From positions 12,424,501 to 12,488,500 of the forward strand of contig NZ_CP011509.1 in NCBI RefSeq assembly GCF_001027285.1: a DNA stretch of 64,000 bases. Direction: 5' to 3'. This document shows, in pieces, positions 6,935 through 64,000 of the stretch. Made by a program: the position numbers and the translations under genes. Below the pieces are notes generated by a model. The model made no database searches. It was not told where the DNA came from and worked only from the letters and a program-made list of their open reading frames with translations. Position 1 is the first letter of the stretch; every line of letters begins with the position of its first letter. This DNA comes from Archangium gephyra. Lineage in GTDB: Bacteria > Myxococcota > Myxococcia > Myxococcales > Myxococcaceae.

Positions 6935-6957
6935 CCCGCTCACCTCCTCTTCGCAAA

Positions 6958-10020: not shown

Positions 10021-10053
10021 GCGCCCGGCCCGATAACGGACCTGGGCGCCGGG

Positions 10054-10072
10054 CGCCGGGATTTTCCCGGCG
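10054..10072. repeat. Intergenic hairpin (possible weak terminator)
   Basis: An eight-base perfect inverted repeat (CGCCGGGA and its mirror TCCCGGCG) closes a TTT loop between the acyl-CoA dehydrogenase and the SpoIIAA-like gene. No T tract follows on the minus strand, so termination is uncertain. It may only attenuate read-through. Confidence 0.35.
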
Positions 10073-10101
10073 GCTGTGCGCTGCCCAACGTTCGCGAGCG
10101 G

Positions 10102-11247
<1,146 letters not shown>

Positions 11248-11322
11248 CTGGGTGGCCTCCGTGCACCGCGGGCCTCGTGCCCGCGCTGGGAAGCGGATGC
11301 TCCCCCGGGATTGACGCGGAAA

Positions 11323-15965: not shown

Positions 15966-16058
15966 CCGAGCACCAGCTCGCCCCCCTGCCCCAGGTGGGC
16001 ACGGGGGGAGAAGAAGAGAAGGCGTCCGGTGGGCGAGGCACCGGACGGGGCAAGCGCC

Positions 16059-16691
16059 CTACGCGTGCGTCGAGGAGTCCTCCTCCGCGATGAGTCCCTC
16101 CTCCTGAGCCAGCGAGCGCAGGTGCGTCTTGATGCGCTGGAATTGCTGGCGCAGCGCCGCGGCCTTGCGTTTGAGCGCCGAATCCGTCAGCGCCTCCTCG
16201 CCTTCCGACATGACCCGGGCCACCTCCTCCCATGACAGGCGTTGATCCACCCGCAGCAGCAGCAACATGCGCTCCTGGGGATCCAGGCTCTCGCGCAGCG
16301 CGCGGAAGCGCTCCTTCACGGAGGTGCGCTGCCAGGGCCGGGTCTCCGAGCGCGGCTTGAGCTCCGCATCAGGAAGTTTGGACATCGTCACCGGCTGCTC
16401 CCGCCCCGCCGGCGCGTGCATCACCTGGTAGCACGCGTTGCGCGCCAGCCGGTAGGCCCACGTCCGGAAGGAGCTCTCCCAGCGGAAGCCCGGGAGCCCA
16501 CGCAAGAGGTTCTCGCTGAAGAGGCTGAAGGCATCCCGGCTCCGCTCATAGTCATGCAGCACGGAGGCCATCAGCCGCATGATCTCCTGCCCATATCCCT
16601 CCAGCGCCCGCTCCACGGCCCCGGCCAGGTCTCCCCGCTTGCACAGTCCCTGGATGTCCTGCTCCAGCTTCTCGCGCTCTTCCAACTGCAT
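16059..16691 (-). CDS. ECF-type RNA polymerase sigma factor
   Basis: A 210-residue sigma-70 family protein of the extracytoplasmic-function type, which would direct RNA polymerase to a small set of promoters. Region 2 covers about residues 25-90 ('SFRTWAYRLARNACYQVMH' is the promoter-melting helix). Region 4 covers about 135-200 ('LDPQERMLLLLRVDQRLSWE', 'EVARVM'), with an unusually long, Lys/Arg-rich recognition helix. ATG 16691 has GGGAG upstream. It sits between the kinase fusion (48 bases upstream) and the VMAP gene (93 bases downstream) on the same strand. No anti-sigma factor is seen, so control by the adjacent kinase or by the VMAP/vWA proteins is a reasonable guess. Confidence 0.85.
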   Translation of the reverse strand: MQLEEREKLEQDIQGLCKRGDLAGAVERALEGYGQEIMRLMASVLHDYERSRDAFSLFSENLLRGLPGFRWESSFRTWAYRLARNACYQVMHAPAGREQPVTMSKLPDAELKPRSETRPWQRTSVKERFRALRESLDPQERMLLLLRVDQRLSWEEVARVMSEGEEALTDSALKRKAAALRQQFQRIKTHLRSLAQEEGLIAEEDSSTHA

Positions 16692-16739
16692 GGTGGCTCT
16701 CCCTCGCTGCCTCTCGTTGTGCTTCTCGCTCCGCCCCGC

Positions 16740-47051: not shown

Positions 47052-47168
47052 GGGCTCTGTTTCATACGCCCGGGCCGCTCCGGTTCAACCACGACCGTGT
47101 CACGAGCGCGCGGGGCGTTGCCTGGGCGGCAGTGGAGGGCGCTGGAGATCGGGTAGGCTTGCGCCGCC

Positions 47169-47612
47169 ATGGCTCGCCGCAAACAGTCCGATGAGTCCAC
47201 CGCCCGCGTCCGCAACCTGATCGCCCTCGACGCCGCCAACATCATGCGCCGGCTCGAGGCCCGCCGCGGGGAGATGTTCGTCCTCTTCTCCCGCCTGCGC
47301 AGCCGCGAGCCCATGCTCAGCACCATCTCCACCCGCTACTCCACGGCCACCTTCCACGAGCTCGTCCACCTCCCCGTCCTCGAGCAGTCCGTCGTGGACC
47401 ACTTCTACGAGTGTCTCGACGCGCTGCGCTGGTACTTCACCTACACCGAGGACATGCCCAGTACGGCCCAGCAGACCTTCAACACGCTGCACCGGCGGCT
47501 CGAGGAGGCCCACCGCAAGCTCGTGGCCACACTCGGCCACCCCGTGTCTCCCGATGGCACCACCGTCGTGGAGGGCGAGGTGATCCGCCGGACGGACAAG
47601 GCGCTCCCCTGA
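47169..47612 (+). CDS. Hypothetical helical protein
   Basis: A 147-residue soluble protein, mostly helical with many Arg and Glu residues ('IMRRLEARRGEMFVLFSRLR', 'QQTFNTLHRRLEEAHRKLVA'). It has no recognised domain, membrane segment or signal peptide. It is divergent from the acetyltransferase fusion with about 120 bases between the starts. The frame and codon use look genuine; function is unknown. Confidence 0.65.
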   Translation: MARRKQSDESTARVRNLIALDAANIMRRLEARRGEMFVLFSRLRSREPMLSTISTRYSTATFHELVHLPVLEQSVVDHFYECLDALRWYFTYTEDMPSTAQQTFNTLHRRLEEAHRKLVATLGHPVSPDGTTVVEGEVIRRTDKALP

Positions 47613-47709
47613 AGCGAGTGAGCGGGCGAGCGACAGGCTGCTACGTGCCCCCTGCTTCGCGGCCGGTTCCTGTCTCGGTCCGGGTCTTTCGTCTAGAGTT
47701 CCCCGCCGC

Positions 47710-49215
47710 ATGTTCCAAGCTTCTCGTGGCAGGCGGTGGGCGGTCGTCCTCCTCGTTCCCTTCCTCCTCGGTGCCCTCCTGTGGGCGTCGTCCTGGTCAG
47801 CTCCCGCGGACCCACCGGCTCCCCGGCACGCACGTGCTCCGCGCACCCCTCGTCCCGCCGCCTCGCCCGACAAGCCCCTCCGGCTCGCCCAGGCCTCCGC
47901 TCCCGCGCAGGCCGCCCCCGCGCCCTCCTCCCCGGCTCCCTCCGTCAGCCGCGCGCTGCCTGCCCCCTCTCCCCGAGCCCTCAAGCTGTATCAGCTCGGC
48001 AAGAGGCTCGGCGTCCATGAGCCCCGCCTCGAGGATCCCTGTGTCGCGCCCTCCGGTGCCACCTGCTCCCGCACCGCGCTCGCTCCCTTCTTCGAGTCCC
48101 TCGACGCCCTCTCCTCCCGCGAGGCCGCCTCCCCCACCGTCATCTCCGCGTTCGGCAACTCGCTGATCGCCGGAGATCGCATCGTGGACGTCATCCGCGA
48201 GGAGCTCGGCGCCACCTTCGGCGACGGCGGGCGCGGGGTGCTCGCCATGGACCGCCTCGCTCCCTACGGGCCTCGCGTCCGCGCCGGCTTCGCTCGCGGC
48301 GGCTGGGAGCCTCGCACCCTGGGCGAGGTCAAGCTCGCCGAGCTTCCCTTCGGCATCTCCGGCATCTACCACCGCTCCACCACCACGAAGGCCAGCAGCC
48401 GCTTCGCGCTCGACCGTGAGCCGCGGGGTACCCTGTGGTGGCTCGACGTGCCCCGCGCCGGCCGGCTCTCGGTCCACGCCGATGGCCAGGAGCTCGCCCG
48501 CGCCGAGCCCCAGGGCTCCGGTCAGGCCCAGGCCCTCCCCTTCGACATCCCCGAGGGAGCCCGCCACCTGGAGGTCGTCGCCGACGGCCGGGGCGCCACG
48601 GTGCTCGGCGTCGTGCTGCAGCACCAGCGTCCCGGCATCGTGCTCGACACGCTCGGGGTGCCCTCCGCCGACGCCAACCTCTTCCTGCGCGCCCGCGAGG
48701 ACATCTTCCGCACCCAGCTCGCCGAGCGCTCTCCGCGCCTGCTGCTCTTCATCCTCGGCGGCAACGAGGCCAAGCGTCTCGAGTGGGGCCGCTCCAAGCT
48801 CGCCGAGGTCGAGGAGGGGCTGCGCACCTTCGTCCGCCGCTCGCGCGCCGCCGCTCCCGGCAGTGCGTGCCTCGTGGTGGGCCCCATCGATGCCGTGCGC
48901 GGGGGCAATGGCCCGAAGAAGCTCGCCCAGCGCCCCTACCTCGACGAGGTCATCTCCATCGAGCGGCAGATCGCCCTCTCCGAGGGCTGCGCCTTCTTCG
49001 ACATCTTCTCCGCCATGGGCGGCTCCGGCTCGCTGGCCCGCTTCGTCGACGCCGGGCTCGTCCACGAGGACCTCGTCCATCCGCGCGGCCATGGGCTCGA
49101 CATCCTCGGCCAGCTCATCACCGATGCGCTGCTGCGCTCCTGGGTGGACGCGGCGGACCCGCGCCGCCAGGCCGCCCTCGCCCCGCCGCTCCAGGCCTCC
49201 GAGGAGACGCGGTGA
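47710..49215 (+). CDS. Membrane-anchored SGNH-like protein
   Basis: A 501-residue protein. An N-terminal helix (about residues 10-30) anchors or exports it. A long Pro/Ala-rich linker follows to about residue 90, then an SGNH-hydrolase-like domain. The Ser block is 'SAFGNSLIAGDRIVD' (Gly-Asn-Ser-Leu replaces the usual Gly-Asp-Ser-Leu), an Asn block is 'FILGGNEAKR' and the Asp/His block is 'DLVHPRGHGLDILG'. It resembles envelope-located SGNH esterases or acyltransferase partners acting on cell-wall polymers. Its stop overlaps the GTG start of the following beta-lactamase-like gene, so the two proteins are coupled and probably share an envelope role. Confidence 0.8.
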   Translation: MFQASRGRRWAVVLLVPFLLGALLWASSWSAPADPPAPRHARAPRTPRPAASPDKPLRLAQASAPAQAAPAPSSPAPSVSRALPAPSPRALKLYQLGKRLGVHEPRLEDPCVAPSGATCSRTALAPFFESLDALSSREAASPTVISAFGNSLIAGDRIVDVIREELGATFGDGGRGVLAMDRLAPYGPRVRAGFARGGWEPRTLGEVKLAELPFGISGIYHRSTTTKASSRFALDREPRGTLWWLDVPRAGRLSVHADGQELARAEPQGSGQAQALPFDIPEGARHLEVVADGRGATVLGVVLQHQRPGIVLDTLGVPSADANLFLRAREDIFRTQLAERSPRLLLFILGGNEAKRLEWGRSKLAEVEEGLRTFVRRSRAAAPGSACLVVGPIDAVRGGNGPKKLAQRPYLDEVISIERQIALSEGCAFFDIFSAMGGSGSLARFVDAGLVHEDLVHPRGHGLDILGQLITDALLRSWVDAADPRRQAALAPPLQASEETR

Positions 49216-51188
49216 GAGCGCTCCTCGCCGCCCTTCTCCTCCTCTGCCTCACCGCGCCGCTCCCGGCCCCGGCCCGCTCCCGCGCCGCCGCCGCGTCCCA
49301 GCGGAAGGACACGCCCTTCCCCGCCGAGGTGCAGCGCGCGCTGGATGCGCTCGTGCGCGCCGAGCTCGCCAAGGGGCCCCATGCCGGGCTCTCGGTGGGC
49401 GTGCTCCACGGCGGCATGCGCTGGGTGCAGGGCTATGGCCTGCGGGACCTCGCCCACAAGCTGCCCGCCACGCCCCGGACGACGTACCGGATGGCCTCCA
49501 TCACCAAGTCCTTCACCGCGGTGGCGGTGATGCAGCTGGTGCAGGAGGGCAAGCTCGAGCTCGACACGGACGTGCGCTCCTGGGTGCCCCAGTACCCCGA
49601 GAAGCCCTGGAAGTTCACCGTCCGCCAGCTGCTCGGCCACCTCGGCGGCGTGCCCCATTACGACGGGCCCGAGGCCGCGGAGAACACCCAGCCGCTCGAC
49701 ACCGCGGGCGCCCTCGCCCTCTTCGCCGACAAGCCGCTGGCCGCCGAGCCCGGCACGAAGTTCGTCTACACCACCTGGGGCTACAACCTGCTCGGCGCCG
49801 CCGTGGAGAAGGCCTCGGGCCAGGGCTACGGCCGCTACCTGAAGTCCCACGTCTTCGGCCCCGCCGGCATGCGCCACGCCGCGCTGGATGATCAGCGCAC
49901 CCGCGACAAGCAGCACGCCGTGGGCTACCGCCCGTACCGGGGACAGCTCGTCCCCTCGCACTTCCTCGATGTCTCCAGCCGCTTCGCCGGTGGAGGCACC
50001 CGCGCCTCCGTGGAGGACCTGCTCGCCTTCGGCCAGGCCATCCTCCAGCACAAGCTGGTGCCCGCGGAGACCGCGCGGATGATGCAGGCCTCCATGAGCA
50101 CCCGCGAGGGCCAGCTCACCGACTACGGCCTGGGCTTCGCCACCTACCCGCTGCGCGGCCACTACATGGTGGCCCACGCCGGAGGCCAGCCGGAAACGAC
50201 TTCGCTGCTGGTGATGCTGCCCGCCGAGGACGTCGTCATCGCGATCGCCAGCAACCTGGAGGGCGAGGCGAAGCGGCAGCGGCGCATCTCCACCCGCATC
50301 ATCGAGACACTGCTGGAGGACGGGCTCGTCCGCCGCGACGCGCACCTGGTGGATCCGGTGGATGCGGTGGTGCACGAGGGGCTCGCCCGCCTCTTCACCT
50401 ACGGGCTCTCGTACCACCTGTGGGCCACCCGCGGCCCCGGCGTGCTTCCCGAGCCGGGAGACCTGTCCGAGGCCTTCACCCGCATGTCCGGGCTGCTCGA
50501 CCGCGCCACCATCGCGCAGGACCCGCAGGCCGCGCTGCAGCGCGTGCGCGACGCCCACCAGCCCCGCGAGGGCTCGCTGCTCATCCGCGTGGGCGCGCAC
50601 ATGGCCCTGACGCTGGAGAAGACGCTGGGACCCGAGAAGCTCCGCGAGTACCCCCAGCGCGGCGCGCTCGCCTTCTTCACCGACTACCTCGCCGCCTGCG
50701 AGCAGGTGCCCTGCGCCACCCCGCTGCGCTTCAGCGAGTCGCTCCAGAAGGACGCGCGGCACTTCGACGACGTCTGGCAGCGCGCGCAGGTGTCCGAGCT
50801 GCGGCGTGTCCGGCTGGACGAGGTGAAGGACGCGGAAGCACTCTGGCCCGCGCTGGAGCTGGCCACCGCCAACACCTCCCTGCACCCGGACTACGTGGAT
50901 GAGATGGTCCGCGTCGCGGGCCTGCTCGGCAAGCGGGGCAGGAAGGAGGAGCAGCTGCGTTGGCTGGAGCGCGCCGTGGCCCTGCATCCCCAATCGGCGC
51001 CGGCACGCGAGGCGCTCGCCAAGGTACAGGCCCCCGGGACGCAGGAGACGCCGGAAGTGCCCGCCGCCACCGCGCCTCGCCGCGCCACCGACGGCAGCAG
51101 CCCCGTGCCCGATGATGCCGGCCTCCTGCCTGCTTCACACCCCGTGCCTCAGCGGCCCCAGGAGCGCGCCGCCGAGCAGGGAGGCTGA
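49212..51188 (+). CDS. Beta-lactamase-family serine hydrolase with TPR-like C-terminus
   Basis: A 658-residue exported serine hydrolase of the class C beta-lactamase/DD-peptidase fold. A signal peptide of about 25 residues begins at GTG 49212 (overlapping the preceding stop as GTGA). The nucleophile Ser-x-x-Lys is in 'RMASITKSFTAVAVM', a Tyr-containing second motif is in 'FVYTTWGYNLLG' (Tyr-Thr-Thr, where many relatives have Tyr-x-Asn) and the third motif is in 'VAHAGGQPETTS'. Residues about 380-640 are helical with TPR-like character, and the last 60 residues are low-complexity. It may trim peptidoglycan or cleave another ester or amide in the envelope; antibiotic resistance is not implied. 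Confidence 0.85.
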   Translation: MRALLAALLLLCLTAPLPAPARSRAAAASQRKDTPFPAEVQRALDALVRAELAKGPHAGLSVGVLHGGMRWVQGYGLRDLAHKLPATPRTTYRMASITKSFTAVAVMQLVQEGKLELDTDVRSWVPQYPEKPWKFTVRQLLGHLGGVPHYDGPEAAENTQPLDTAGALALFADKPLAAEPGTKFVYTTWGYNLLGAAVEKASGQGYGRYLKSHVFGPAGMRHAALDDQRTRDKQHAVGYRPYRGQLVPSHFLDVSSRFAGGGTRASVEDLLAFGQAILQHKLVPAETARMMQASMSTREGQLTDYGLGFATYPLRGHYMVAHAGGQPETTSLLVMLPAEDVVIAIASNLEGEAKRQRRISTRIIETLLEDGLVRRDAHLVDPVDAVVHEGLARLFTYGLSYHLWATRGPGVLPEPGDLSEAFTRMSGLLDRATIAQDPQAALQRVRDAHQPREGSLLIRVGAHMALTLEKTLGPEKLREYPQRGALAFFTDYLAACEQVPCATPLRFSESLQKDARHFDDVWQRAQVSELRRVRLDEVKDAEALWPALELATANTSLHPDYVDEMVRVAGLLGKRGRKEEQLRWLERAVALHPQSAPAREALAKVQAPGTQETPEVPAATAPRRATDGSSPVPDDAGLLPASHPVPQRPQERAAEQGG

Positions 51189-51355
51189 GGCCCGCCAGAC
51201 TCGCCCGCTCGCCCCCCATGCGAGCGGACAACCGCACCCGAGCACAACATCCGCCTCGGACCGCTGTTGGTTCACTCCGGCACGAATCAACCCGTCCTGG
51301 GGAGGGCCCGCTGGTGGGCCTGGCCACGGCTCGGGTGCGCCTTGAAGGCTTCACC

Positions 51356-54300
51356 ATGCGGACAGTCATTCCGAGAGACCTGCACCCGGGCCATGCCGGG
51401 ATGGAGACCGTCACGTCCCTGTTGCTCGACTTCATCCGTGCCGAGGACGCGGGAGAGCGTTACGCCTTCCGCTTCGGTGTCCAGGAGTATGTGCTTCGCG
51501 GTGCCGGTGGAGGCGCCGAGAACCTCGAGCTCCACTGGAACCAGGCCCTGCTCGCGGACCTCGCCGCCCTCCACCAGCCAGGCTGCGATCCCGCCATCCT
51601 CCAGCGCGTCGGCGGGCTGCTGCGGGGCTTCCTCAAATCGGACGAATGGGCTCGCCAGGAGACCCGGCTGCTCGAGGCTGTCTCTCGCGAGCAGCCCGTG
51701 GTGGTCACCCTCCGCTCCGCCGCCGCCGAGCTGTACGCCCTGCCCTGGGAGCTGCTCACCCTGGGCGCCAGCGGTCAGCACCTGGGCGAGCTGCCCTCGG
51801 TCCTCGTGCGCTACGAGTGGCCCGAGACCCGCACCGCGGCCGAGTCGCCCTCGCCTCGTCCCGAAGGTGGGCGCGTCCTCTTCGCCTGGTCGGCGGCGGG
51901 TGGTGGCGTCCCCGTCACCGAGCACCTGCGCGCCATCCAGGAGGGAGCACGCGCCGGCCATCATCCCTTCCAGCCCCAGGGCGATGTCCTCGAGCGCGCC
52001 TCCTACGGGCGGCTGGATGATGTGCTCCGGGCGGCGATGGCCCCGGGTGGCTCGCCCATCTCCGTGCTCCACCTGCTCTGCCACGGTGGCGCCGCCGGAC
52101 AGACCTGCGGCCTGGTACTCGACGGCGAGGACACGGGCGAGCCCACCATCGTCGACGCCGGACGCCTCCGCCAGCTCCTCGCGCCCTACGCGGGCATGGT
52201 GCGGCTGGTGGTCCTCGCCGCCTGCAACGGCGGCAACACCGGCACACTCGGCAATCAGCTGGGGAGTATCGCCCAGGCGCTCCACCAGATTGGCATTGGC
52301 GCCGTCATCGCCTCGCGCTTCCCCCTGTCCATTCCCGGCGCCAACCGCTTCTCCGAGTCCTTCTACCAGGGGCTCCTCGGCGGCCCCTGCTCCGTGGAGA
52401 GCGCCTTCCTCGCCGCCCGCCGGCAGCTCGCGCGCGACACCTCCCGCCTGGACTGGGCGAGCCTGCAGCTCTACGCGCGCGGCGCCGAGGGCCATGACAG
52501 CCGCCCCCTCGTCCTGCGCCCCTACCGCGGCCTGCTCGCCTTCCAGCCCGAGCACAGCCGCTTCTTCTTCGGCCGCGACGGCGAAATCCAGGAGATCATC
52601 GGCGACCTCGGCGCGCTCACGAAGGCCGGAGCGCCGCGCCTGCTCGTCATCGCCGGCGCGTCGGGCACCGGCAAGTCCTCGGTGGTGCTCGCCGGTGCCG
52701 TGCCGCGCATGCTCCAGCAGCCCGGGGCCACGTGGGTGTTCTCCTCGATGCGCCCCGGTGCCCGGCCGCTGGCCGCGCTCGACGCCGCCCTCGCCACGCG
52801 GACGGAGCCGGGCAGGCCGCTGCTGCTCGTGGTGGATCAGTTCGAGGAGCTCTTCACCCAGACGGAGTCCGTGGAGGAGCGCGATGCCTTCGCCCACCGG
52901 CTGTGGGCACTGGCGGCGGACGCCGGCTCCGGCGTGTCGGTACTCGTCACCCTGCGCGTGGACTTCATCGGCCGCTGCGGCGAGCTCGTGCTCGATGACA
53001 AGGGATTGCGGCTCGACAAGGTCGCCTACGAGGAGAAGCACCGGGTCTTCGTGGCGCAGATGACCCAGGCGCAGCTGCAGGAGGCCATTGAAAGGCCGGC
53101 GCAGCTGGTGGGGCTCACGCTCGAGGCGGGCCTGGCGCGCCGGATGCTCCAGGACGTCGAGGGCGAGCCGGGTGCCCTCCCCCTGCTCCAGGACACCCTC
53201 GACCTCCTCTGGCAACAGCGCGAGGGGCGGACGCTCACCCAGGCCGCCTATGACAAGGTGGGCGGTGTCACCGGAGCGCTCCAACGCCGGGCCAATGCGC
53301 AAGTCGAGGCGCTCGACGACGCGGGGAAACAGCTCGCACGCCGCCTCCTGGTCCGGCTGGTGAGCACGCGCGATGACACGGCGAGGGACACGCGGCGGCG
53401 GATGCCTCTCCTGGAGCTCCGGCCACGAGATGCGGAGAAGGGGGCGCACTTCGAGCGGATCCTCGGCCGGTTCGTCGATGAGCGGCTGCTGGTGCGTACG
53501 GACGAGGGCCAGATGGCCGCCGTGGAGATTGCCCACGAGGCGCTGATCCGGAAGTGGCAGCTCCTGGTGGACTGGCTGCGGGAAGACCGCGAGCGGCTCG
53601 CGGAGCTGGAGAAGCTCAAGAGGTGGGGGCAGGAGTGGAAGAGCTCCGGGACGCTGCTGGAGTCAGGCCGGCTCGCGATCGCACAAGACATCGAGAGGCG
53701 CTGCCCCGATGAGGCCGGCGATGATGCGAGGGAGTTGCTCGAGCACAGCCGCAAGAAGCTCCAGAAGGAGCGGCTCTCCCGGTGGTTCGGCAGGGCAGGC
53801 ATCATGGTTGTAGCGGGAGGACTGCTGGCGCTCGGATTTTCCGCCCTCGTGTCCAAGCTGGTGATCAGTACCGCGTTTGGGCTGGCGTTCGAAAACTCGA
53901 CGAACCTCTTCGATCAGAAGCATGTGAACGCCGCTTTCGAACAGGTGAGGGCGAACAATCCGCAAGCGGCGAGCATCCTCTTGAGGGAGCTCGGCTTCAA
54001 TCTACCGTGGCGGATCCGCGGCTGGCTCGAGGCCCTTCCCATCTGCACCGTCAAGTCCGGTGAAGACGGGCCCGAGCCCAGGCAGAAACCCCATGGCGAC
54101 TGGCATTGCAATGTCTCCATCCAGGAGAATGGCCATGTGCGCGTGGAGCTCAACGGACTGAAGCCCTGCACCTTCCCCCTCTACGCGAAAGATGACTCCC
54201 GTGACGCCTGCATGGGGCTTATCTACCCGGAGCTCATGAAGAAGCTCTGGACGGAGAATCCCTGCCCCACTCCCGAGGAATCGAAGGGGTACTTCGGAAT

Positions 54301-54598
54301 GGCCGAAGGGCAGGATGTCCTTCCGACCCAGGCGGAGTGCAAAGACATGCAGGGGTGCCTGAGCCATTCGGAAACAGCAGACGCTTCCTGGCAGTGCTGG
54401 GCCGATTACCAGAAGGGAAGGCTCAAACGGCATAACAAGTGGCTCGCTGGAAACGCCGGCGTTCACCTGAAGCAAGCGGTGAAAGACCTGTCTCCCCTCT
54501 TCGCGGACGAACCGCCCCAGGAGCGAGCCACTCCCCCTGCTGAGGACGGCCCCCGGCGCGAGGGCATGACAGACGGGGTCTCCATAAGAGGCCCATGA
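51356..54598 (+). CDS. CHAT protease-STAND NTPase conflict protein
   Basis: A 1080-residue protein. Residues about 110-385 form a CHAT (caspase-like) protease with the catalytic dyad His243 in 'LHLLCHGGA' and Cys290 in 'VVLAACNGGN'. Residues about 390-800 form an nSTAND1 NTPase: Walker A 'GASGTGKSS' at 434-442 and Walker B 'LLLVVDQFEELF' at 489-500. A single membrane helix lies near 815-838 ('IMVVAGGLLALGFSALVSK'). The last 240 residues form a Cys-containing domain I do not recognise, where related proteins usually carry WD40 repeats. ATG 51356 was chosen because it follows a plausible GAAGG; an open upstream extension is not protein-like. In known relatives, signal binding by the STAND part unleashes the protease. 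Confidence 0.9.
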   Translation: MRTVIPRDLHPGHAGMETVTSLLLDFIRAEDAGERYAFRFGVQEYVLRGAGGGAENLELHWNQALLADLAALHQPGCDPAILQRVGGLLRGFLKSDEWARQETRLLEAVSREQPVVVTLRSAAAELYALPWELLTLGASGQHLGELPSVLVRYEWPETRTAAESPSPRPEGGRVLFAWSAAGGGVPVTEHLRAIQEGARAGHHPFQPQGDVLERASYGRLDDVLRAAMAPGGSPISVLHLLCHGGAAGQTCGLVLDGEDTGEPTIVDAGRLRQLLAPYAGMVRLVVLAACNGGNTGTLGNQLGSIAQALHQIGIGAVIASRFPLSIPGANRFSESFYQGLLGGPCSVESAFLAARRQLARDTSRLDWASLQLYARGAEGHDSRPLVLRPYRGLLAFQPEHSRFFFGRDGEIQEIIGDLGALTKAGAPRLLVIAGASGTGKSSVVLAGAVPRMLQQPGATWVFSSMRPGARPLAALDAALATRTEPGRPLLLVVDQFEELFTQTESVEERDAFAHRLWALAADAGSGVSVLVTLRVDFIGRCGELVLDDKGLRLDKVAYEEKHRVFVAQMTQAQLQEAIERPAQLVGLTLEAGLARRMLQDVEGEPGALPLLQDTLDLLWQQREGRTLTQAAYDKVGGVTGALQRRANAQVEALDDAGKQLARRLLVRLVSTRDDTARDTRRRMPLLELRPRDAEKGAHFERILGRFVDERLLVRTDEGQMAAVEIAHEALIRKWQLLVDWLREDRERLAELEKLKRWGQEWKSSGTLLESGRLAIAQDIERRCPDEAGDDARELLEHSRKKLQKERLSRWFGRAGIMVVAGGLLALGFSALVSKLVISTAFGLAFENSTNLFDQKHVNAAFEQVRANNPQAASILLRELGFNLPWRIRGWLEALPICTVKSGEDGPEPRQKPHGDWHCNVSIQENGHVRVELNGLKPCTFPLYAKDDSRDACMGLIYPELMKKLWTENPCPTPEESKGYFGMAEGQDVLPTQAECKDMQGCLSHSETADASWQCWADYQKGRLKRHNKWLAGNAGVHLKQAVKDLSPLFADEPPQERATPPAEDGPRREGMTDGVSIRGP

Positions 54599-54617
54599 TC
54601 AAGACACTCCCACTTTC

Positions 54618-54638
54618 CCCTCTCCCTCCGGGAGAGGG
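54618..54638. repeat. Short palindrome of a probable dispersed repeat
   Basis: A nine-base perfect inverted repeat (CCCTCTCCC and GGGAGAGGG) closes a TCC loop 20 bases after the CHAT-STAND stop. It is followed by ACGGGGTGAGGGTA. This CCTCTCCC/GGGAGAGG pattern looks like an intergenic repeat found in several GC-rich genomes, though a match to a named family was not tested. It could also act as a weak terminator. Confidence 0.6.
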
Positions 54639-54734
54639 ACGGGGTGAGGGTATCCGCCCCTGTATTCCACCCCGTGCCCCCACTTGGAGCCCCGGAGTAC
54701 ACTCCCGGGCACCATCACGCGGAAGGGGGGTCCG

Positions 54735-55247
54735 ATGTTCCCGGTCGAGAACGGACAGGTGAAGCGGCTCGGAGCGGACGACGCACCGGCGCTGCAGTCC
54801 CTGCTCGAGCGCTGCCGCGACTTCCTGGAGCTGACGCACGAGGCGCCGCGGCCCGATGAAGCGGAGCACTTCCTGGCGAACCTGCCCGAGGGAAAGACAC
54901 TCGAGGACAAGTTCGTGCTCGGGCTTTACGCGGACGGGACGAGCGAGCTGGCCGGAGTCATCGACATCGTCCGCCACTGGCCCGTGAGGGACGAGTGGAT
55001 CATCGGCACCTTCCTGCTGGACCCCACCCACCGCAACGCGGGGCTCGGGGCGCACGTGCACCGGCAGCTCGAGGGATGGGTGCGGAACCAGGGAGCAACG
55101 GGGCTCCGGCTCGTCGTGCAACAGCAGAACCCGGGGGCGCTCCGCTTCTGGCAGCGGCAGGGCTACACCATCACGGGCCAGACGCACCAGCGGACCCGCA
55201 CGCGGGAGAACGTCATCCACCTGTTGCACAAACCGCTCGGCGCCTGA
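54735..55247 (+). CDS. GNAT family N-acetyltransferase
   Basis: A 170-residue single-domain GNAT enzyme transferring an acetyl group from acetyl-CoA. Motif A, which binds the pantetheine and pyrophosphate, is in 'FLLDPTHRNAGLGAHVHRQL' (a variant of Q/RxxGxG/A); the C-terminal motif B is in 'NPGALRFWQRQGYTITGQTH'. The length is normal. ATG 54735 gives the natural start. The acceptor is unknown. It is transcribed away from the CHAT-STAND gene and separated from it by about 140 bases including the palindrome. Confidence 0.88.
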   Translation: MFPVENGQVKRLGADDAPALQSLLERCRDFLELTHEAPRPDEAEHFLANLPEGKTLEDKFVLGLYADGTSELAGVIDIVRHWPVRDEWIIGTFLLDPTHRNAGLGAHVHRQLEGWVRNQGATGLRLVVQQQNPGALRFWQRQGYTITGQTHQRTRTRENVIHLLHKPLGA

Positions 55248-55409
55248 GCGCGCCGGGACGCCAGGCGGCACCGTTCACCGTCTGGCATCCCAGCCGTGAG
55301 CCAGGGCCCGAGCCGTCGATGAGCGGACAGCTTCACGACTTTTGAGCCACTCGCGCGGGCGATGCCATCCGGTCCCGGGTGTGATGCCGGGCCCTTCGGG
55401 AGGGACGGC

Positions 55410-57662
55410 ATGAGCATGACGCGGCGGGAGCTCCTCCACTACTTCGGCGTGACGGCTGCGGGCCTGGCGGGGCCCGGATGTATCGGCTGGACGCGCGAGG
55501 AGGCCATCCCGGTGGACTCCTGGCACAAGAGCGTGTGCCGCTTCTGCGGCTCGGGCTGCGAGACGCGCGTGGGCGTGCGCGGCGGCAAGGTGGTGAAGGT
55601 CGAGGGCCTGCAGGAAGGCTGGAACCGGGGCCGGCTGTGCATCAAGGGCCTGCTCAACCGTGAAATCCTCTACGTCTCGGACCGGGCGCAGTACCCCATG
55701 GTGCGCAAGAACGGGCAGCTGGTGCGCGTGTCCTGGGACGAGGCGCTCGACGCGGCGGCCGCCGGCTTCCGCGAGGCCATCGCGCAGGGCGGGCCGGACG
55801 CGGTGGCGTACTACGGCTCGGGGCAGCTCTTCACGCAGGAGAGCTACACCGCCAACAAGTTGTTCAAGGGTGGCATCGGGACGAACAACGTGGATGGCAA
55901 CCCGCGCCTGTGCATGGCGTCGGCGGCCTTTGGCTACAAGTCCGTGTTCGGCGCGGACGAGCCCTCGGGCTGCTACGACGACATCGAGCACGCCACGACC
56001 TTCTTCGTCATCGGCGCCAACATGGCCGAGTGCCACCCGGTCGTCTGGGAGCGCGTGCGGGACCGCCTCCGCACCGCGCCGCAGACGCGCGTCATCGTGG
56101 TGGACCCGAGGCGCACGCCCACCGCGCGAGACGCCACGCTGCATCTACAGCTACGGCCCGGCACGGACGTGGCGCTGCTCAATGCCATGGCCCACGAGCT
56201 GCTGCGCACCGGGCTGGTGGACCGGACGTTCATCGACAACTTCGTCACCTTCCGCAAGGGCGCGGCCGACGCGCCGCCGCTCACGCGGGAGGACTTCCAG
56301 AAGTTCCTCGAGGACTACGCGCCGGAGAAGGTGGCGGACCTGTGTGGCCTGTCCTCGGCGGAGATTCGCGAGGCCGCGCGGCTGTGGGGCATCTCCCAGG
56401 CGGTGACGAGCTTCTGGACGATGGGACTCAACCAGCAGACGCACGGGGTGGCGGCCAACCGGATGATGATGGCGCTGCACCTGCTCACGGGGCAGATAGG
56501 ACGGCCCGGGCCTCGCCCTTCTCCATGACGGGCCAGCCCAACGCGGGCGGCGGCGTGCGGGACACGGGCTCGCTGGCCCACGCGCTGCCCGCCGGACGGC
56601 TCGTGTCCAAGGAGAAGGACAGACACGAGATGGAGAAGTTGTGGGGACTGCCCGAGGGCCGCATCTCGCCCAACCCGGGCCTGTCCGCCGTGCCGCTCTT
56701 CGAGGCCATGCGCGAGGGCAAGGTGCGCGCGGCGCTGGTGATGGCCACCAACCCGGCGCGCTCGCTGCCCAACGCGGATCGCTACCGCGTGGGCATGGAG
56801 AAGGCCTTCCTCGTCGTCTGTGATTCCATCTTCCCCACCGACACCGCGCAGCTCGCCGACGTCTTCCTTCCGGCGGCCATGTGGGCGGAGAAGGAGGGCG
56901 TCTTCTCGCAGTCCGAGCGCCGCTACCACCTGGTGCAGAAGCTGGTGGAGCCGCCGGGCGAGGCACGCTCGGACCTGGAGATTCTCGTGGCCCTTGGCGA
57001 GCGGCTCGGCCACGGGAGCTGCTGAAGGCGCGCACGCCCGAGGCCGTCTGGGACGAGTGGCGGAGGATTTCCGCCGGCAGCACCTACGACTTCACCGGCA
57101 TCACCTACGCGCGGTTGAAGGAGCTGCCAGGACTGGTGTGGCCGTGCCCCAGCGAGGACCACCCGGGCACCTGCCACCGCTACGTGCCGGGGAAGGATCC
57201 CCTGGCGAAGAAGGAGGGGCGCATCGACTTCTACGCGCGGCCGGACGGGCGCGCCATCGTCTACCTCTCCGAGCAGGGCCCCTTCCGGGAGGCGCTCACG
57301 GGCGACTACCCGATGATTCTCACCACCGGGCGCCGGCTGGAGCACTGGCACACCGCGACCCTCACGGGGCGGATTCCCCAGTTGCAGGGCGTCGACATGG
57401 ACTACCTGGAGATGCACCCCGGGGACGCGGCGGTGATGGGCGTGAACGAGGGGACCTGGTGCAGGTGACGAGCGCACGCGGCTCGGTGCGGCTGCAAGCG
57501 AAGCCGAGCATGCGGGTGAGGCCGGGCGTGGTGTTCGCGCTGATGCACTCGATGAAGCACCTGGTGAACGCGGCGACGAGTGACCACGTGGACCCCATCT
57601 CCGCACAACCCGAGTACAAGATGGCCGCGGTGCGGGTGGAGCGCGTGAAGGAGGGCACGTGA
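55410..57662 (+). pseudogene. NapA-like periplasmic molybdopterin oxidoreductase, frameshifted
   Basis: Sequence of a nitrate-reductase-like (NapA family) Mo-bis-MGD enzyme of about 750 residues, near family size. The N-terminus has a Tat-like signal ('MTRRELLHYFGVTAAGLAG') and a 4Fe-4S motif Cys-x2-Cys-x3-Cys ('CRFCGSGCETRVG') with a fourth Cys in 'GRLCIKG'. The frame breaks three times: near 56508, 57014 and 57450. Each break is repaired by adding one G to a G run, restoring 'PFSMTGQPNAGGGVRDTGSL', 'RELLKARTPEAVW' and 'DLVQVTSARGSVRLQ'. The rest of the chain is intact, so sequencing error is more likely than decay. It is coupled to the NapC-like gene (TGATG). Whether nitrate is the substrate is not certain. 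Confidence 0.8.
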
Positions 57663-58330
57663 TGCGAGCCTGGAGCCTGCTGTCGATGGCCGCGCCCGAG
57701 CCTCCGCATGGCGCCACGCTGGGCGGCACGCTGGAGGGCGTGGCCCTGGTGTGCATCGTCGTGGCGCTGGTGGGGCTGGTGCTGGTGGAGTTCGTCTTCA
57801 AGTCGAGGATGGCGCGCTCGACGTACCGGTGGATGCTGCTGCTGGGGCTCTTCGTGCTGCCGGCCGTGGCGCTGCTGGGCACCACGGGGCACATGTTCGA
57901 GTCGATGAAGGAGGTGGAGGCCTGCCAGTCCTGCCACGTGATGGACCCCTTCGTGGTGGACATGCACAACGCGGAGAGCGCCACGCTGGCGGCCAGGCAC
58001 TACCGGTCGGGAGCCATTCCGGCGAAGCAGTGCTACGCGTGCCACACGGGCTACGGCATCTTCGGCACGGTGGAGTCCAAGCGCGACGGCTTCCGCCACT
58101 GGCTGCTGTACGTGACGGACACGTGGAAGGAGCCCATCACGTACAAGGGCTCCTATCCCAACTCCAACTGCCTGGCCTGCCACGCCACGGCGCCGGCCTT
58201 CACGCGGGTGGACAGCCACCGGGCGCTGAGCAAGCAGCTCGCGAGCGACGAGATGAACTGCTTCACCTGCCACGGACTGCCGCACCCCTCCCGCCCGAGC
58301 CGCGCGCCCACCCGCGCCGCCGTCCACTGA
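57662..58330 (+). CDS. NapC/NirT-type tetraheme c-type cytochrome
   Basis: A 222-residue membrane-anchored cytochrome that should pass electrons from the quinol pool to the NapA-like enzyme. Two hydrophobic segments near residues 25-50 and 58-78 anchor it. Four heme-binding Cys-x-x-Cys-His motifs follow in order: 'CQSCH', 'CYACH', 'CLACH' and 'CFTCH'. The size suits NapC/NrfH-like proteins. The start at 57662 overlaps the upstream stop as TGATG. Maturation would need a cytochrome c biogenesis system elsewhere in the genome. Confidence 0.92.
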   Translation: MRAWSLLSMAAPEPPHGATLGGTLEGVALVCIVVALVGLVLVEFVFKSRMARSTYRWMLLLGLFVLPAVALLGTTGHMFESMKEVEACQSCHVMDPFVVDMHNAESATLAARHYRSGAIPAKQCYACHTGYGIFGTVESKRDGFRHWLLYVTDTWKEPITYKGSYPNSNCLACHATAPAFTRVDSHRALSKQLASDEMNCFTCHGLPHPSRPSRAPTRAAVH

Positions 58331-58339
58331 GGCCCCGCC

Positions 58340-58543
58340 ATGAACGCGCCTTCGCCCGATAGGTTGATTCGAGCCGCCGTCCTCCTGACGCTGGTGGGCC
58401 TGCTGATGATGCTGCCCATCCTCTTCGGCGTCCGCGCGAGCTTCGTGGGCTTCTACATGCTGGGGAGCCTGCTGCTCACGGTGTCCCTCACGCTGTATGT
58501 CATTGCCGTGGTGCGAGAGCTGCGCCGCGGCGGCGCGTTGTGA
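58340..58543 (+). CDS. Small two-helix membrane protein
   Basis: A 67-residue protein with two membrane helices ('AAVLLTLVGLLMMLPILFGV' and 'GSLLLTVSLTLYVIAVVREL') and a basic end. It starts nine bases after the tetraheme cytochrome gene, so it belongs to the same operon and may help assemble or anchor the redox complex. No family is recognised. Confidence 0.65.
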   Translation: MNAPSPDRLIRAAVLLTLVGLLMMLPILFGVRASFVGFYMLGSLLLTVSLTLYVIAVVRELRRGGAL

Positions 58544-58556
58544 GCATGAGAAACGC

Positions 58557-60260
58557 TCAGGGGAACGCTTCGGCCCGGGTCTGCCAGTATTCCCTGTAGG
58601 GGAAATGTATGAAGTCGTTGGTGTTATCCGTGATCAACATTGCCCGATGGCGCAATGATGCCGCGAAGACCGCCAGGTCGAAACGAAGCCGGTCCCGGCA
58701 GGCTCGCTCGGTTTCGTGCTGACGCTGCAGAGGAGGCGCGTCGAACTGGAGCTTCCGGTTCAAATCGAAAAAGCACCGGGCGGAGAGTGCATCGAACGGG
58801 ACAACCTGAAGCCCTCGTTCGATGAGGTTCGTATCAATGATGTGCAGCCCCTTGGCTCCCTTTTTCCGGGAGATGAGTTCGGCGTACACGAGCGTGGAGA
58901 TCAGCGCGGGCCGACCCTGTTGCCGCACACGCGCCACTTCTGGCTGAAGCGCGCTGTTGGTATCGAAGAACAGGGCCTGTGTTGGCACTTCCCCGATGAA
59001 AACGATTTCCGGCGGAGGAGGCGGAAGATCAGCCAGTGGATTCCGCATCCGAGCCTTCCTCCCGCAGATGATCCGCGTACCCTGGGGTCCCAGGAGTTGG
59101 TACCCGTGCCGGCTCGGTACGAGGTACACGTGCTTCCCATCTTGGATACCTAGTTGCTTCAGCACTTCAAAGGGAAGGGTGACACCTCCGCCTCTCGTGA
59201 CCTGCAAGAGCTCCTCATCAGCTTGCTGCCTGGCTGGGACAGGGTCCGCCCATCGCGCCTGCGTCCCGTCTTGTGGATCTCGCGAAACCACGAGCCGCTC
59301 AGCTTCCTCCTCGAAGACCCGGGAGTGGCTGGTAACGAAGACCTGATCCATAGGCCCTGTCTCACCCGTGAACTCGCGCAACTTCTTCCAAAGGAGACGC
59401 TGGTTGGGCTCGGAGAGGTTCATCTCCGGCTCCTCGACGGCGAGAATCCTGCCGCGGTGGCAGAGCGTGAGAGCGAGCAGCGTCAGCAATTGCTGGATAC
59501 CCGTGCCTCGCTCCTCTAGATCCAATTCAACCCCATTCTGCCGGGTACGAACGTTGATCTTCTGATTGGGTTGGACAGAAACATTCACAATGCCGATTCC
59601 GAGCGCAGGGTCGCGAACAGCCGCGCGCAACTGCTCAAATCTCTCCTGTACCTCTAGATCGGACTATTCTTGTAGAGAAAAAGTAATTGCTTGAGATTGG
59701 AACCATGCCACCGGACCTGGCTTTCCCAGGGCGTGTTCTTATGGAGATGAAGGGACTCCCCTCCAGGCTCTCGCCTCGTAGTAACGAGTCGGAATGCAGG
59801 AGCTAGGGACCAAGCCATTCCTCCAGTACCTTGCCTGACCATGGTGACCCAGCTAGAGGTGCGCGCAAGCCCTTCTCGATGCGCTCTCCCTCACGGGTCC
59901 ATTTGATGCGGTAGTCGATGATCTCGCCGGGAGGGGACGCCAACCACGAGCCCCATCGCGCGACTCAAATCTGATGCCAAGAGAGATGCTGAACGAATCC
60001 TTTCCGTGCTGGAAAAGGTTCTGCCATCCTTCACCCAATCGGGATATTCGGAGGGCTCACCAGGAATGGATTTAACATCATGATCTGCTTCCACGCGGAG
60101 TAGAGTCGGCAACGTGCTGAATGCGAGGTCCAGCGCGTGCAGGATGTTGCTCTTGCCGACATCGTTTGGCCTTCGATGACGACATGGGCTTATCGAGTCC
60201 CTCAAGCCGAAGCCATTCGATACTCCGGAAGTTTTCGATCTCCAGCCACGCGACCCGCAT
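58557..60260 (-). pseudogene. OLD/AAA_15-like ATPase-AbrB-PIN fusion, frameshifted N-terminus
   Basis: A candidate about 565-residue protein. It starts at ATG 60260 ('MRVAWLEIENFRSIEWLRL'), typical of SMC/RecF-like ATPases, and then has Walker A in 'PNDVGKSNILHALDLAF' after a frame break near 60190. Further breaks lie near 59940 (one C missing from a C run), 59822 and 59650. The last 357 codons (to 58557) are one clean frame. They hold Walker B 'RILAVEEPEMNLSEPNQRLL', an AbrB-like swapped-hairpin segment ('VTRGGGVTLPFEVLKQLGI') and a PIN nuclease ('ALFFDTNSAL', 'VYAELISRK', 'LRFDLAVFA', 'ITDNTNDF') with its four acidic residues. The region is lower in GC than its surroundings. ATPase plus antitoxin-like plus toxin in one chain is unusual. 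Confidence 0.65.
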
Positions 60261-61025
60261 CGGTACCTTCCTGCCGCCCTTGGCAGCACCGCCTTTGCTC
60301 ACGGCCCATATATCAACGATTCCCCAAGAGGGCAGGCTCAAGACCTTCACCGTGCCACGAAGAACTTCGCGCGCTCGGGGCCCACGGTGCCCAGCGAGCG
60401 GGCGATCAACGTAGCGTCGATGAGGTAACGGTCCACGGCGAGGCCCGGAAGCTCGCTACCCCCTCCACCGTCCATGTGCCCGCGAACTGGGCGTTGTAGA
60501 AGTTGTGACCAAGACAAGGTGATGGGCCGCTCCGGCGTCGTCTGCACGTGACCGGAGGCATCCACCACCTCAAGCACCGGAGAGAAGGGCACGCCCACCT
60601 TGGTGATGCTCGAGACACGCGGAACGAGAGCCGGGCGAGCCCACGTGGACTACGTCGACCGGTTGGCTCTCCGTCGCTGGCAGCCGGGCACGTTCGTGGC
60701 GATCTTCCCAGCAGCACCTGGACGGTCAACCCCTCGACAGGACCCAGCACGGCCTCGGCCGCCTCGCGCAACGCTCCCGAGCGGGCAAGCTCGCGCACCT
60801 CAGGCACGGACTCGAAGAGGTCGCGTGTGCAACCACGCCGCCGTGGCTCGGTTCCCCTGGGGAGCGTTGCAAGTGCCGAGAGCAACGTATCGAGGGCCAT
60901 GGAGGGAACGCCTGGGGAGGATGGCGAAGCCCTCCCGCTCGATGCATGCAGCCAGCGCTTCGCGAATACCGTGCCTCGCGATTGTGGCAGGCTACCGCGC
61001 CCCCAACGTGGAGCCACCGACGATC
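60261..61025 (-). pseudogene. Broken coding region, possible PhyH-like fragment
   Basis: No intact gene is seen. On the minus strand, two frames joined near 60900 give protein-like sequence ('EALAACIEREGFAILP', then 'ALDTLLSALATLPRGTEPRR' and 'LFESVPEVRELARSGALREA'), reminiscent of the N-terminal part of phytanoyl-CoA dioxygenase-like proteins. The expected His-x-Asp iron-binding motif could not be located, so the family is only a guess. Downstream, other fragments ('SITKVGVPFSPVLEVVDASG') follow in yet another frame. The stretch probably holds one gene damaged by several frameshifts or sequencing errors. Confidence 0.3.
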
Positions 61026-61432
61026 ATGATCGAGCTACGTGCCTGCATCGATGTCGAGACCTGGACAAGGCCATCGCGTTCTACACCCAGACCTTCGGGT
61101 GAAGCCCGGGCGCCGGGATGGCTCCGCGTGGCCGAGCTGCTCGGGGCCACCTCCCCCATCGACCTGCTCGCCGGCCGGCGGGGAGCCCGTCCAGCCCCGG
61201 AGCCTCCTCCGTACGTGACTACCGCCGGCACTGGACCTCCGTCCATCTGGACTTCACCGTCACCGACCTCGACGCCGTCGTCCAGCGCGCCCAGGCCGCG
61301 GCGCCACCGCTCGATCGCGGCATCCAGGAGCAGAAGTGGGGACGCATGGCCAACCTCGCCGACCCCTTCGGCAATGGCTTCTGCCTGCTCGAGTTCCGGG
61401 GCCGTGGTTACGACGAAATCGCCGGCTCCTGA
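61026..61432 (+). pseudogene. VOC (glyoxalase/dioxygenase superfamily) protein, frameshifted
   Basis: A small protein of the vicinal-oxygen-chelate superfamily, about 135 residues if repaired. Its N-terminus 'MIELRACID' continues in another frame as 'RDLDKAIAFYTQTFG', then in further frames as 'AELLGATSPIDLLAG'. The C-terminal half from 61190 is clean: 'HWTSVHLDFTVTDLDAVVQR' and 'GRMANLADPFGNGFCLLEF' are classic VOC signatures with the metal-ligand His and Glu. At least three frame breaks lie between 61055 and 61190. It may act on a toxic or xenobiotic small molecule. Confidence 0.65.
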
Positions 61433-61532
61433 GCCGAGCCCGCCCGCCCGCTGTGCTCGCGCCTGACGTGCCGCCGGGTGCCGTTGAATCCGTTCGGGCC
61501 AGCGGGCCCCCACCATGGAAGACTGCGCCGCC

Positions 61533-62636
61533 ATGCGAGCCTCGCTTCGTTCATCTCTCCTTGCCCTGACGCTCGTCTGTCCACCGCCGCCAGTGCGGCC
61601 CCTCCGGCCGGCAAGCCCACGCCCTTCCACGCCCGCGTCCCCGATGAGGCGCGGGTGGAGCGCGTCCTCCAATCCCTGTCCCGCGCGAGAAGGTGGGGCA
61701 GCTGCTCCTCGCCTACCCGCAGGTGGGCAAGGAGAACCCCGTGGAGTGGGCGGGGTGCTCTTCGTGGGCGGGACGCTCAAGAAGCTCGACGCGGCGAAGG
61801 AGCGCATCCGCTCCTCCAGCGCGCGCGCGAAGATTCCTCCCTTCTTCGCGGTGGACATCGAGGGCGGTGGCTTCAACCGGCTCAAGGCGCACCCCTCGCT
61901 CAAGGAGCTCCCGCTGGCCCGGGACATGGCCACGATGGAGGACGCCGAGGTGGAGGCGTGGGGCCTACGCGTCGGCAAGGCGATGAACGAGGTGGGGCTC
62001 AACATGAACCTCGCGCCCGTGTTCGACGTGTCCCCCAAGGGCCACATGTTCCGCAACGGGCGCGCCTTCTCCGGGGACCCCAAGGTGGTGAAGCAGAAGG
62101 CCACCGCCTTCGCGCGCGGCCTGGCGAAGGCCGGAGTCGTCTCCATCGGCAAGCACTTCCCGGGCTACGGGGATCTCGACGCGGACTCGGACCACGAGCA
62201 GGCCGTCGCCGATTGGGACGAGGAGCGCGTGCGCCTGGAGGCGGCGGCCTTCCGTGCCGCGGACCGCTACCTGGGCGGGGTGATGCTGTCGAACGTCGTG
62301 TACGCGAAGCTCGGAGCGGGGCCGGCCATCCTCGAGCCCGCGCTCGTCTCCATGGCGCACGAGAACGGGTGGATCTCCGTCACCGACGACGTGGCCATCC
62401 GCGCGCTCGCCGAGCGTATCGGCACCGAGCGCGAGGAGGTGGTGCGCCGGGCCTTCCTCGCGGGCAATGATCTCATCCTCACCACCGAGCCGCCGGACTG
62501 GTCGGGCGGGCTGGACTACTTCGGCATCCTGACGAAGCTGGCCGGGTCGGACCCGAAGGTGGCCGAGCAGCTGGACGCGGCGGTGCGGCGGGTGCTGCGC
62601 ATCAAGGACCGGATGGGCCTGCTGGACGGGCTGTAG
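61533..62636 (+). pseudogene. NagZ-like glycoside hydrolase family 3 protein, frameshifted near N-terminus
   Basis: A GH3-type beta-N-acetylhexosaminidase-like enzyme of about 368 residues with an N-terminal signal segment ('MRASLRSSLLALTLVC'). The frame breaks near 61578, 61680 (C run) and 61752 (G run); after that it is clean to the stop. The clean part has 'FFAVDIEGGGFNRL', 'LNMNLAPVFDV' and the signature 'IGKHFPGYGDLDADSDHE', which contains the His-Asp region acting with the nucleophile in this family. A related enzyme, NagZ, recycles peptidoglycan in the cytoplasm, whereas the signal here suggests an exported enzyme. Confidence 0.75.
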
Positions 62637-62691
62637 CGAGCATTCCGGATTCTTGAGCCCGGCGGGGGTTCGGACTGAAGTGCCGGAGTCC

Positions 62692-63511
62692 ATGGCACGG
62701 AATCCGAACACCTCCTGGCGGCTCACGCGCCTGCTGCTGACCAGCCTCCTGCTCGGCGCCTGCGCCACCAGACCCGGGCATCCCGGCACTGCTTCACGTG
62801 GAGACTGGCGGCTCGATTCGGAGTCCGTCGCCGCGCGCGCTACGCGGCCTCCTGCGTGGCACGGGTACGGCGGTCTCCTCCACCACCCTGGCCGTGGGCT
62901 CCACGCTCGTGCTGGCCACGCCGGTGGTCCTGGCCGTGTACCACCCAACCAGGACAAGGTGGTCGAGTTGCAGGAGCGCCTCGCGGAGTGCGCCCGGATG
63001 GCCGAGCATCAGGTCAACTCCGATCACTTCGGCGACCGGCCACCCACGCGGGAAGAGTGCGGCGAGGAATTGGAGTGGACGGCTGCACCGAGCCCATCAC
63101 CCGAGCCATGCTCCTGGGCAGACAGAAGCACGACCTCGCCCTCGCCTGCGCTCGCGATGTCCTCACCCGGCTCTGGCCCGCGCCCTTCAGCATCGAGCAG
63201 CGCTACCGCTACTACGGCACAGCCGCATGATCGAGACCATCAGCCGGGAGCAGGAGCAACAGTTCATCAAGGAGGGTTGTACCCACAAGCTTCGGAGCAC
63301 CATCAAGCCCGATATCGTCCTCCACTCGGACTACAATCTGCTCCAGGCAGCGCTCATCATCGACCTCAAGTTTCCTTGCCCTTCATCCAACGATCCGGTG
63401 TGGCGCTCGTATGGCAAGACCAGTGCTTATAACGGATTGACCCAAGGGCAGGTCTATCAACAAGCACTGGACGGCAAGGTCTTCATGCTCACGCCCAGAG
63501 GGTTCTTTTGA
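62692..63511 (+). pseudogene. Toxin-like lipoprotein with REase-type C-terminus, frameshifted
   Basis: A lipoprotein of about 270 residues spread over three frames with about four breaks (near 62795, 62945, 63075 and 63228). It starts 'MARNPNTSWRLTRLLLTSLL' with lipobox 'LLLGACAT'. A hydrophobic segment ('VSSTTLAVGSTLVLATPVVL') and a soluble part ('LQERLAECARMAEHQVNSDH') follow. The C-terminus has a PD-(D/E)xK nuclease-like pattern, 'KPDIVLHSDYNLLQAALIID' followed by 'LKFPC', where Asp-Leu-Lys fits the D/ExK position. The stop overlaps the DUF3396 immunity-like gene. Lipoprotein carrier plus nuclease tip plus immunity gene is the layout of myxobacterial polymorphic toxins. Confidence 0.6.
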
Positions 63512-64000
63512 TGAAGGAGCACATTCCCCATCTCCGGGTACGAGCGGACAATGGGTTCCTGGTGGCTCAAGATGGCCTCATTCTCTGCTTCTTCATGCGC
63601 CGCTCCCACCAAGAGGTTGCTCCTCTTGCGTGGAGGGCCCTGCAAACGTATCTGCGGGCCATCCCGCTGGGGCTTTGAGCGGGTACGTCGCTTGCGAGGG
63701 AGGTCTCCTGCCTCTCGACGATGAGGGCTGGGAAGACATCCGTCAGGACATGTTCGAACGCCCCTGCCCGGTCTCGCGCAGCGTCTATCTGCGGGAGCAC
63801 ATCGATCAGGTGGGCAGCTACAACTTCGAGTATTACGGCCGGCGGCTCGATGCGCCCATCTTCGCCCGCGACGAGAACTCCACCAGCGCCGTGAGCTTTA
63901 CCCTTCCCACGGGGTACCTGATGGAGCACGCCCGCCCGCATTCGCGCCCTCGCTCTCGAGCTCGCTCGCGAGCTGCCCTTCAGCTTCGGCTACGCCAGCC
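63511..64000 (+). pseudogene. DUF3396 (TsiV-type) immunity protein, frameshifted and cut by the window end
   Basis: The N-terminal part of a DUF3396 immunity-like protein. It starts at ATG 63511 ('HIPHLRVRADNGFLVAQDG', 'LCFFMRRSHQEV'). The frame breaks near 63670, where one G added to a run of four restores 'LGALSGYVACEGGLLPLDDE'. It continues with 'IDQVGSYNFEYYGRRLDAPI' and breaks again near 63931, after which 'RALALELARELPFSFGYAS' resumes to the edge. It overlaps the toxin-like gene stop (TGATG). Its role would be to protect the producer and its kin from the toxin encoded upstream. Confidence 0.7.

Follow-up and report, generated by a model that had tools for sequence, protein, structure and literature searches.

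In the window, the whole 64,000-nucleotide stretch of DNA that was analysed (positions 12424501-12488500 of one contig, which is 12489432 bases long), two genes of opposite orientation to the contig lie side by side: one for an ATPase with a C-terminal AbrB/MazE-like tail, and one for a VapC-like PIN-domain protein (Table 1). The locus is present twice in the same genome, the span in the window being found also at C1:13061-14132, at the start of the contig. C1 coordinates refer throughout to this start copy; the window holds the contig-end copy.

Table 1. Features of the locus in window coordinates, with corresponding positions in the contig-start copy (C1).
Feature	Position	Strand	Remarks
Putatively transferred segment	58551-60343		C1:13052-14852; 18 bp in its place in a same-genus genome; coordinates converted by gap table
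PIN-domain gene, VapC-like, 163 aa	58557-59048	-	ATG at 59048; acidic residues D29, E57, D124, D141 (PIN numbering)
AAA_15/OLD-type ATPase gene with C-terminal AbrB/MazE-like tail	59029-60260	-	Frameshifted in the window; intact, 412 aa, at C1:13530-14768
Last 75 ATPase residues, including the MazE/AbrB-like tail	59032-59255	-	Converted from C1:13533-13757; conserved in 14/14
Site creating the apparent fusion	59079		CCC in the window vs CCCC in the second copy; shifts the ATPase/AbrB-like frame into the PIN frame
Presumed untrimmed circular overlap	45476-64000	+	Repeats contig 1-18531 at 99.6% identity; differences almost all indels

Two copies of the locus and the apparent three-domain frame

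Aligned over the whole length of their overlap, the two contig ends show 2 mismatches, against 70 gap bases. Of the 37 differences within the overlap's first 4.7 kb, 31 are bases that the contig-start copy lacks, 4 are bases that the window lacks and 2 are the mismatches. The middle 6.2 kb had zero differences. Towards the window's end, over its last 7.6 kb, 35 bases differ, and the window copy lacks 34 of them. Because indels, not mismatches, dominate and cluster near both contig ends, we infer that the repeated stretch is an untrimmed circular overlap, with both ends assembled from few reads, and not a true duplication. On this reading the final 18.5 kb of the window is a redundant contig end, and it calls for caution since its last 7.6 kb are full of indels. 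Between 56400 and 64000 the window is 34 bases short of the other copy, about 1 in 220, and frames, pseudogenes and fusions called there are therefore unreliable. A molybdopterin-oxidoreductase-like gene that precedes the module, for example, has one-base deletions at window 56507, 57013 and 57449 relative to the second copy, and its apparent breaks at these positions are likely assembly errors.

The sequence-only reading had described a single chain holding ATPase, AbrB-like and PIN domains. The 357-codon frame on which it was built does exist, uninterrupted, at 58557-59630 on the reverse strand, and its contents were read correctly: the C-terminal half of an AAA_15-type ATPase with its Walker B motif (AVEEPEMNL), a stretch weakly resembling MazE/AbrB, and a PIN-like part that has four acidic residues. 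Over the span concerned, however, the window copy is 7 bases short of the second copy. The start copy has a 412-aa frame for the ATPase with its AbrB-like part and, in a different frame, a 163-aa PIN gene, which starts at an ATG at C1:13549 and overlaps the ATPase gene by 20 nt; the AbrB-like part and the PIN part are joined in the window because one base is absent at 59079. The six further missing bases, from 59660 to 60185, disrupt the ATPase in the window copy. A profile of the ATPase end and tail matched at positions 1-204 in the start copy but only at 1-190 in the window copy. The PIN protein is identical in both copies.

We therefore rejected the single-chain protein, since in the second copy, as in each of the 13 relatives described below, PIN has a gene to itself, and a false three-domain fusion is thereby removed. 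For the chain to be real in the source strain, the error would have to lie in the contig-start copy. An open frame of 357 codons speaks for such a protein, and ATPase-nuclease fusions are described for PARIS in its single-gene ariAB form (PMC9122126); yet the window copy also carries the six other losses that destroy the ATPase, the start copy encodes a whole ATPase whose C-terminus aligns with those of relatives, and the fusion was found in 0 of 14 family members. We regard this possibility as practically negligible. If ribosomes sometimes underwent programmed frameshifting at the GGGG run, with a minor fused product of the two genes as the result, this would fit the position of the difference, which falls in a short G run just ahead of the PIN start. 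The frame relation between the genes is not constant, however: among the 14 modules the PIN gene is in a different frame from the ATPase in 13 (+1 in seven, +2 in six) and in the same frame but behind a stop codon in one, and close to the ATPase stop each PIN frame has a start codon of its own. Frameshifting of this kind is thus very improbable.

The ATPase and PIN genes and their relatives

In the start copy the ATPase is a single 412-aa frame with Walker A, Walker B and the tail. It scored 74.1 bits against AAA_15 (cut-off 32.1), 42.7 bits against AAA_21 (cut-off 27) and 75.6 bits against the PADLOC AriA model, and its N-terminus is RecF/SMC-like. No Toprim domain was matched on the 412-aa protein, the C-terminus of which is instead the MazE-like tail. 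The tails of the family have in common the pattern V-T/S-x-x-G-x-x-x-L/V-P-...-L-G-L-x-x-G-G. Pfam MazE_antitoxin matched 6 of 14 tails (best E 1.7e-5), and the tail of this locus alone gave E 0.0074, a weak single-member score. When the tail profile was compared with the PDB, AbrB chains appeared at E 0.045, and double-psi barrel proteins, UFD1 among them, scored better, from E 2.3e-4. The double-psi barrel and AbrB folds are related. An AlphaFold model of a relative's ATPase, made with few sequences, was poor (mean pLDDT 36.8).

In the 14 PIN sequences D29 and E57 are invariant and D124 is nearly so; the region of D141, the fourth acidic residue, aligns loosely. The best PDB matches of the PIN family profile were chains named tRNA(fMet)-specific endonuclease VapC (E 5.5e-5). 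Pfam PIN matched 8 of 14 family members, the protein of this locus reaching only E 0.093. An AlphaFold model of the PIN protein, again from few sequences, was poor (mean pLDDT 51.7), and a fold search with this weak model gives a hint only: its top 22 PDB matches, all with E no lower than 0.001, were entries for VapC-type toxins or toxin-antitoxins. DUF4435 was not matched by the PIN partner of this locus or by the partners in three relatives, nor was it among the families listed for the 14 partners; HNH was not matched either, the partner being a PIN protein. Gene 1 is thus typed as an AriA/AbiLi/OLD-type ABC ATPase with a C-terminal MazE/AbrB-type domain, and gene 2 as a VapC-like PIN nuclease.

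As a query by itself, the PIN protein retrieved no relatives from plasmids, phages, viral_contigs and genome_contigs at the set thresholds, and among 195 genomes of the window's phylum it matched only the genome it came from. The ATPase by itself had one weak match to a Geobacillus plasmid and one, also weak, to a viral contig, and none in phages. It was through the ATPase that the first three relatives were found, myxobacterial loci of the same plan, in which an ATPase with a MazE-like tail is followed by a PIN gene. Alignment A1, of the first four ATPases, led to two further loci with both genes; it matched at least 8 loci in genome_contigs and none in viral_contigs. Profile A3, comprising the ATPase end and tail in six rows with the PIN part excluded, matched in 4 of 195 genomes of the window's phylum and, in that of G196, in 13 of 282 genomes, nine of them with the tail. 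Matches in the phyla of G199 (1 of 398 genomes) and G198 (1 of 246) were without the tail, and the absence of matches from the 395 genomes of G197's phylum carries little weight because that group had no positive control. Apart from the window copy, A3 matches either reached profile position 193 or more, through the tail, or ended at 140 or less.

At least 13 relatives were found, which together with this locus makes at least 14 modules in 14 genomes. The 14 tail-bearing ATPases are spread over the window's phylum (four), the phylum of G196 (nine) and G195 (one, L049). A truncated ATPase with neither tail nor PIN (L051) was excluded from this count, the G629 module, which lies on two contigs (L070, L080), was counted once, and the PIN gene of L073 is cut off by the contig end. 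Directly downstream of the tail-bearing ATPase a separate PIN gene was found in all 14. With PIN start codons picked by the analyst, the PIN gene starts between -74 and +3 nt relative to the ATPase stop, and at exactly -4, a 4-nt overlap, in six of the 14. Among ATPases newly found with A3, a downstream PIN gene accompanied eight of eight with the tail and none of six without it (Fisher p 3.3e-4), two of these six loci (L067 and L081) having less than 900 nt of downstream sequence. In the earlier loci, too, there was no PIN match outside tail-bearing ATPases. Four tail-less ATPases that were weak matches (L010, L022, L026 and L032) have another conserved gene close downstream, of about 200 aa, which we take to be DUF4276-like; they form a separate ATPase-plus-partner pair.

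The relatives divide the earlier expectation about which parts are joined. PIN is a gene of its own in 14 of 14 modules, so that the ATPase and the nuclease are not one protein, but the AbrB-like domain is indeed fused to the ATPase in 14 of 14, and the proposed link between ATPase and PIN nuclease survives in that the PIN gene always follows the ATPase-AbrB gene.

Insertion of the module and its neighbourhoods

In the same-genus genome G001 the flanks of the locus (C1 10500-13051 at 93% and 14853-15202 at 79%) adjoin almost directly, and the 1.8-kb module is absent; it is also absent from the same-genus genome G003. Neither the PIN protein nor the tail profile matched in any of five same-genus genomes. 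The GC content of the module is 0.586, compared with 0.697 on either side. Given the empty site in a same-genus genome, the 1.8-kb module is an insertion in surroundings of about 70% GC. The suggestion that a locus richer in AT than its flanks had arrived by transfer is therefore kept, with both the base composition and the empty site behind it: the two-gene module is, as judged from sequence, a horizontally acquired, strain-specific insertion.

A role of the ATPase and PIN protein in DNA or RNA repair or processing, and not in conflict, would make the AbrB-like tail merely a dimerisation or nucleic-acid-binding element. The RecF/SMC-like N-terminus and the scores of the tail profile against double-psi barrels are in keeping with this. 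Against it stand the strain-specific insertion and a sparse, patchy distribution (4/195 and 9/282 genomes in two groups, and no tail in the 398, 246 and 395 genomes of three others), and we consider such a role improbable.

The neighbourhoods of nine relatives were examined with a crude ORF caller. The G629 module adjoins type I-E cas genes (Cas3, Cse1, Cse2 and CT1975-like), and the G634 module lies near type III genes (Cas10/Cmr2, Cmr3 and RAMP). In the other seven neighbourhoods no obvious defence genes were seen among those neighbours that were tested, 20 proteins altogether.

Three further observations were made at these loci. Between the divergent G629 ATPase start and cas3 lie 3.3 repeats of a 43-bp unit (L096:8459-8603). 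In the type III CRISPR locus that lies close to the G634 module, a SAVED sensor domain (62-257) shares one frame (L098:8626-10671) with a Cmr3 domain (282-671). Near the G738 module there are two divergent genes for patatin-like phospholipases (L099:2926-5563).

Proposed function and comparison with known systems

Altogether, the fusion is probably a one-base assembly deletion, and the real locus an acquired ATPase-AbrB plus PIN module of the ATPase-gated toxin-antitoxin or abortive-infection type. We propose that the AbrB-like tail would act as the antitoxin part, as an AbrB-type VapB does for VapC, and would keep the PIN nuclease inactive on the ATPase. The ATPase might then sense a trigger, most likely phage infection, upon which the PIN protein would be released or activated. 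It would cut RNA, which by the example of VapC would be tRNA or rRNA, and growth would be arrested before the phage could spread. The tail may also bind the promoter of its own module.

A defence function is plausible. The module could alternatively be a plain addiction (toxin-antitoxin) element that has no part in defence; it would then be a VapBC enlarged by an ATPase whose only task is to stabilise the antitoxin or set its timing. AbrB and PIN are a classic and common toxin-antitoxin combination, for which 312 and 348 adjacent pairs are reported (PMC2701414), and the 4-nt overlap in 6/14 modules, the strain-specific insertion and the lack of obvious defence neighbours in 7/9 contexts all speak for such an element. 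However, pairs of an OLD/AriA-type ATPase and a nuclease are often described as phage-defence systems (PMC10440598, PMC9122126), and cas genes are neighbours in 2/9 contexts; we hold a mere addiction element to be unlikely, if well short of far-fetched. In PARIS, the closest system by its ATPase, deletion of either gene is reported to be non-toxic (PMC9122126), and toxin-antitoxin behaviour is therefore not to be assumed for the present module.

Returning to gated defence, we tentatively suggest that the module may be a distinct, unnamed immune module, which in this sample occurs in myxobacteria and one further large-genome bacterial group. In it, an OLD/AriA-type sensor ATPase may have absorbed the AbrB antitoxin of VapBC as a C-terminal domain and come to gate a VapC-type PIN RNase, a toxin-antitoxin pair thereby turning into ATPase-controlled abortive infection. 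If active, it would be a clean system for testing how an ATPase switches on a PIN toxin.

The module resembles VapBC in having a VapC-like PIN protein, with conserved acidic residues, beside an AbrB/MazE-like domain, and in the overlap of its genes. It differs in that an OLD/AAA_15 ATPase of about 410-470 aa carries the AbrB-like domain as its tail in 14/14 modules, where VapBC has a small separate gene for a DNA-binding antitoxin. With PARIS (AriA plus AriB), described as an AAA_15/AAA_21 ATPase with DUF4435 (PMC9122126), it shares the two-gene cassette of ATPase and nuclease and the AAA_15/AAA_21, AriA-like ATPase; here, however, the partner is PIN and not the DUF4435/Toprim AriB, and the ATPase carries an AbrB-like tail. 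The AAA ATPase (D29) antitoxin hub of NetFlax (Ernits 2023, PMC10440598) is similar in that an AAA ATPase is the antitoxin of various nuclease toxins, but the partners named for it in the available text are OLD_TOPRIM, RloB, HNH, HEPN and AarT; PIN is named there with other antitoxins, and an AbrB tail is not mentioned. Gabija (GajA), Septu (PtuAB) and WonAB likewise link an OLD/ABC-type ATPase to a nuclease. Their nucleases are of Toprim, HNH and restriction-fold types, and the available texts describe no PIN or AbrB-like part (PMC10568477, PMC10440598 and, for WonAB, PMC12137116); the C-terminal Toprim of Gabija and the class 1-3 OLD ATPases (OLD classes in PMC10568477) is lacking here, as is an HNH partner like PtuB of Septu. 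PADLOC 2.0 gave no family with a PIN partner of this kind and one weak GajB match, and our literature search found no account of an ATPase-AbrB plus PIN pair, from which we do not claim its absence from print. By its genes, the module looks like an undescribed relative of the ATPase-plus-nuclease phage defences. As a recurrent module whose ATPase bears an antitoxin-like domain, it forms a link between the VapBC toxin-antitoxins and the OLD/PARIS-type ATPase defences.
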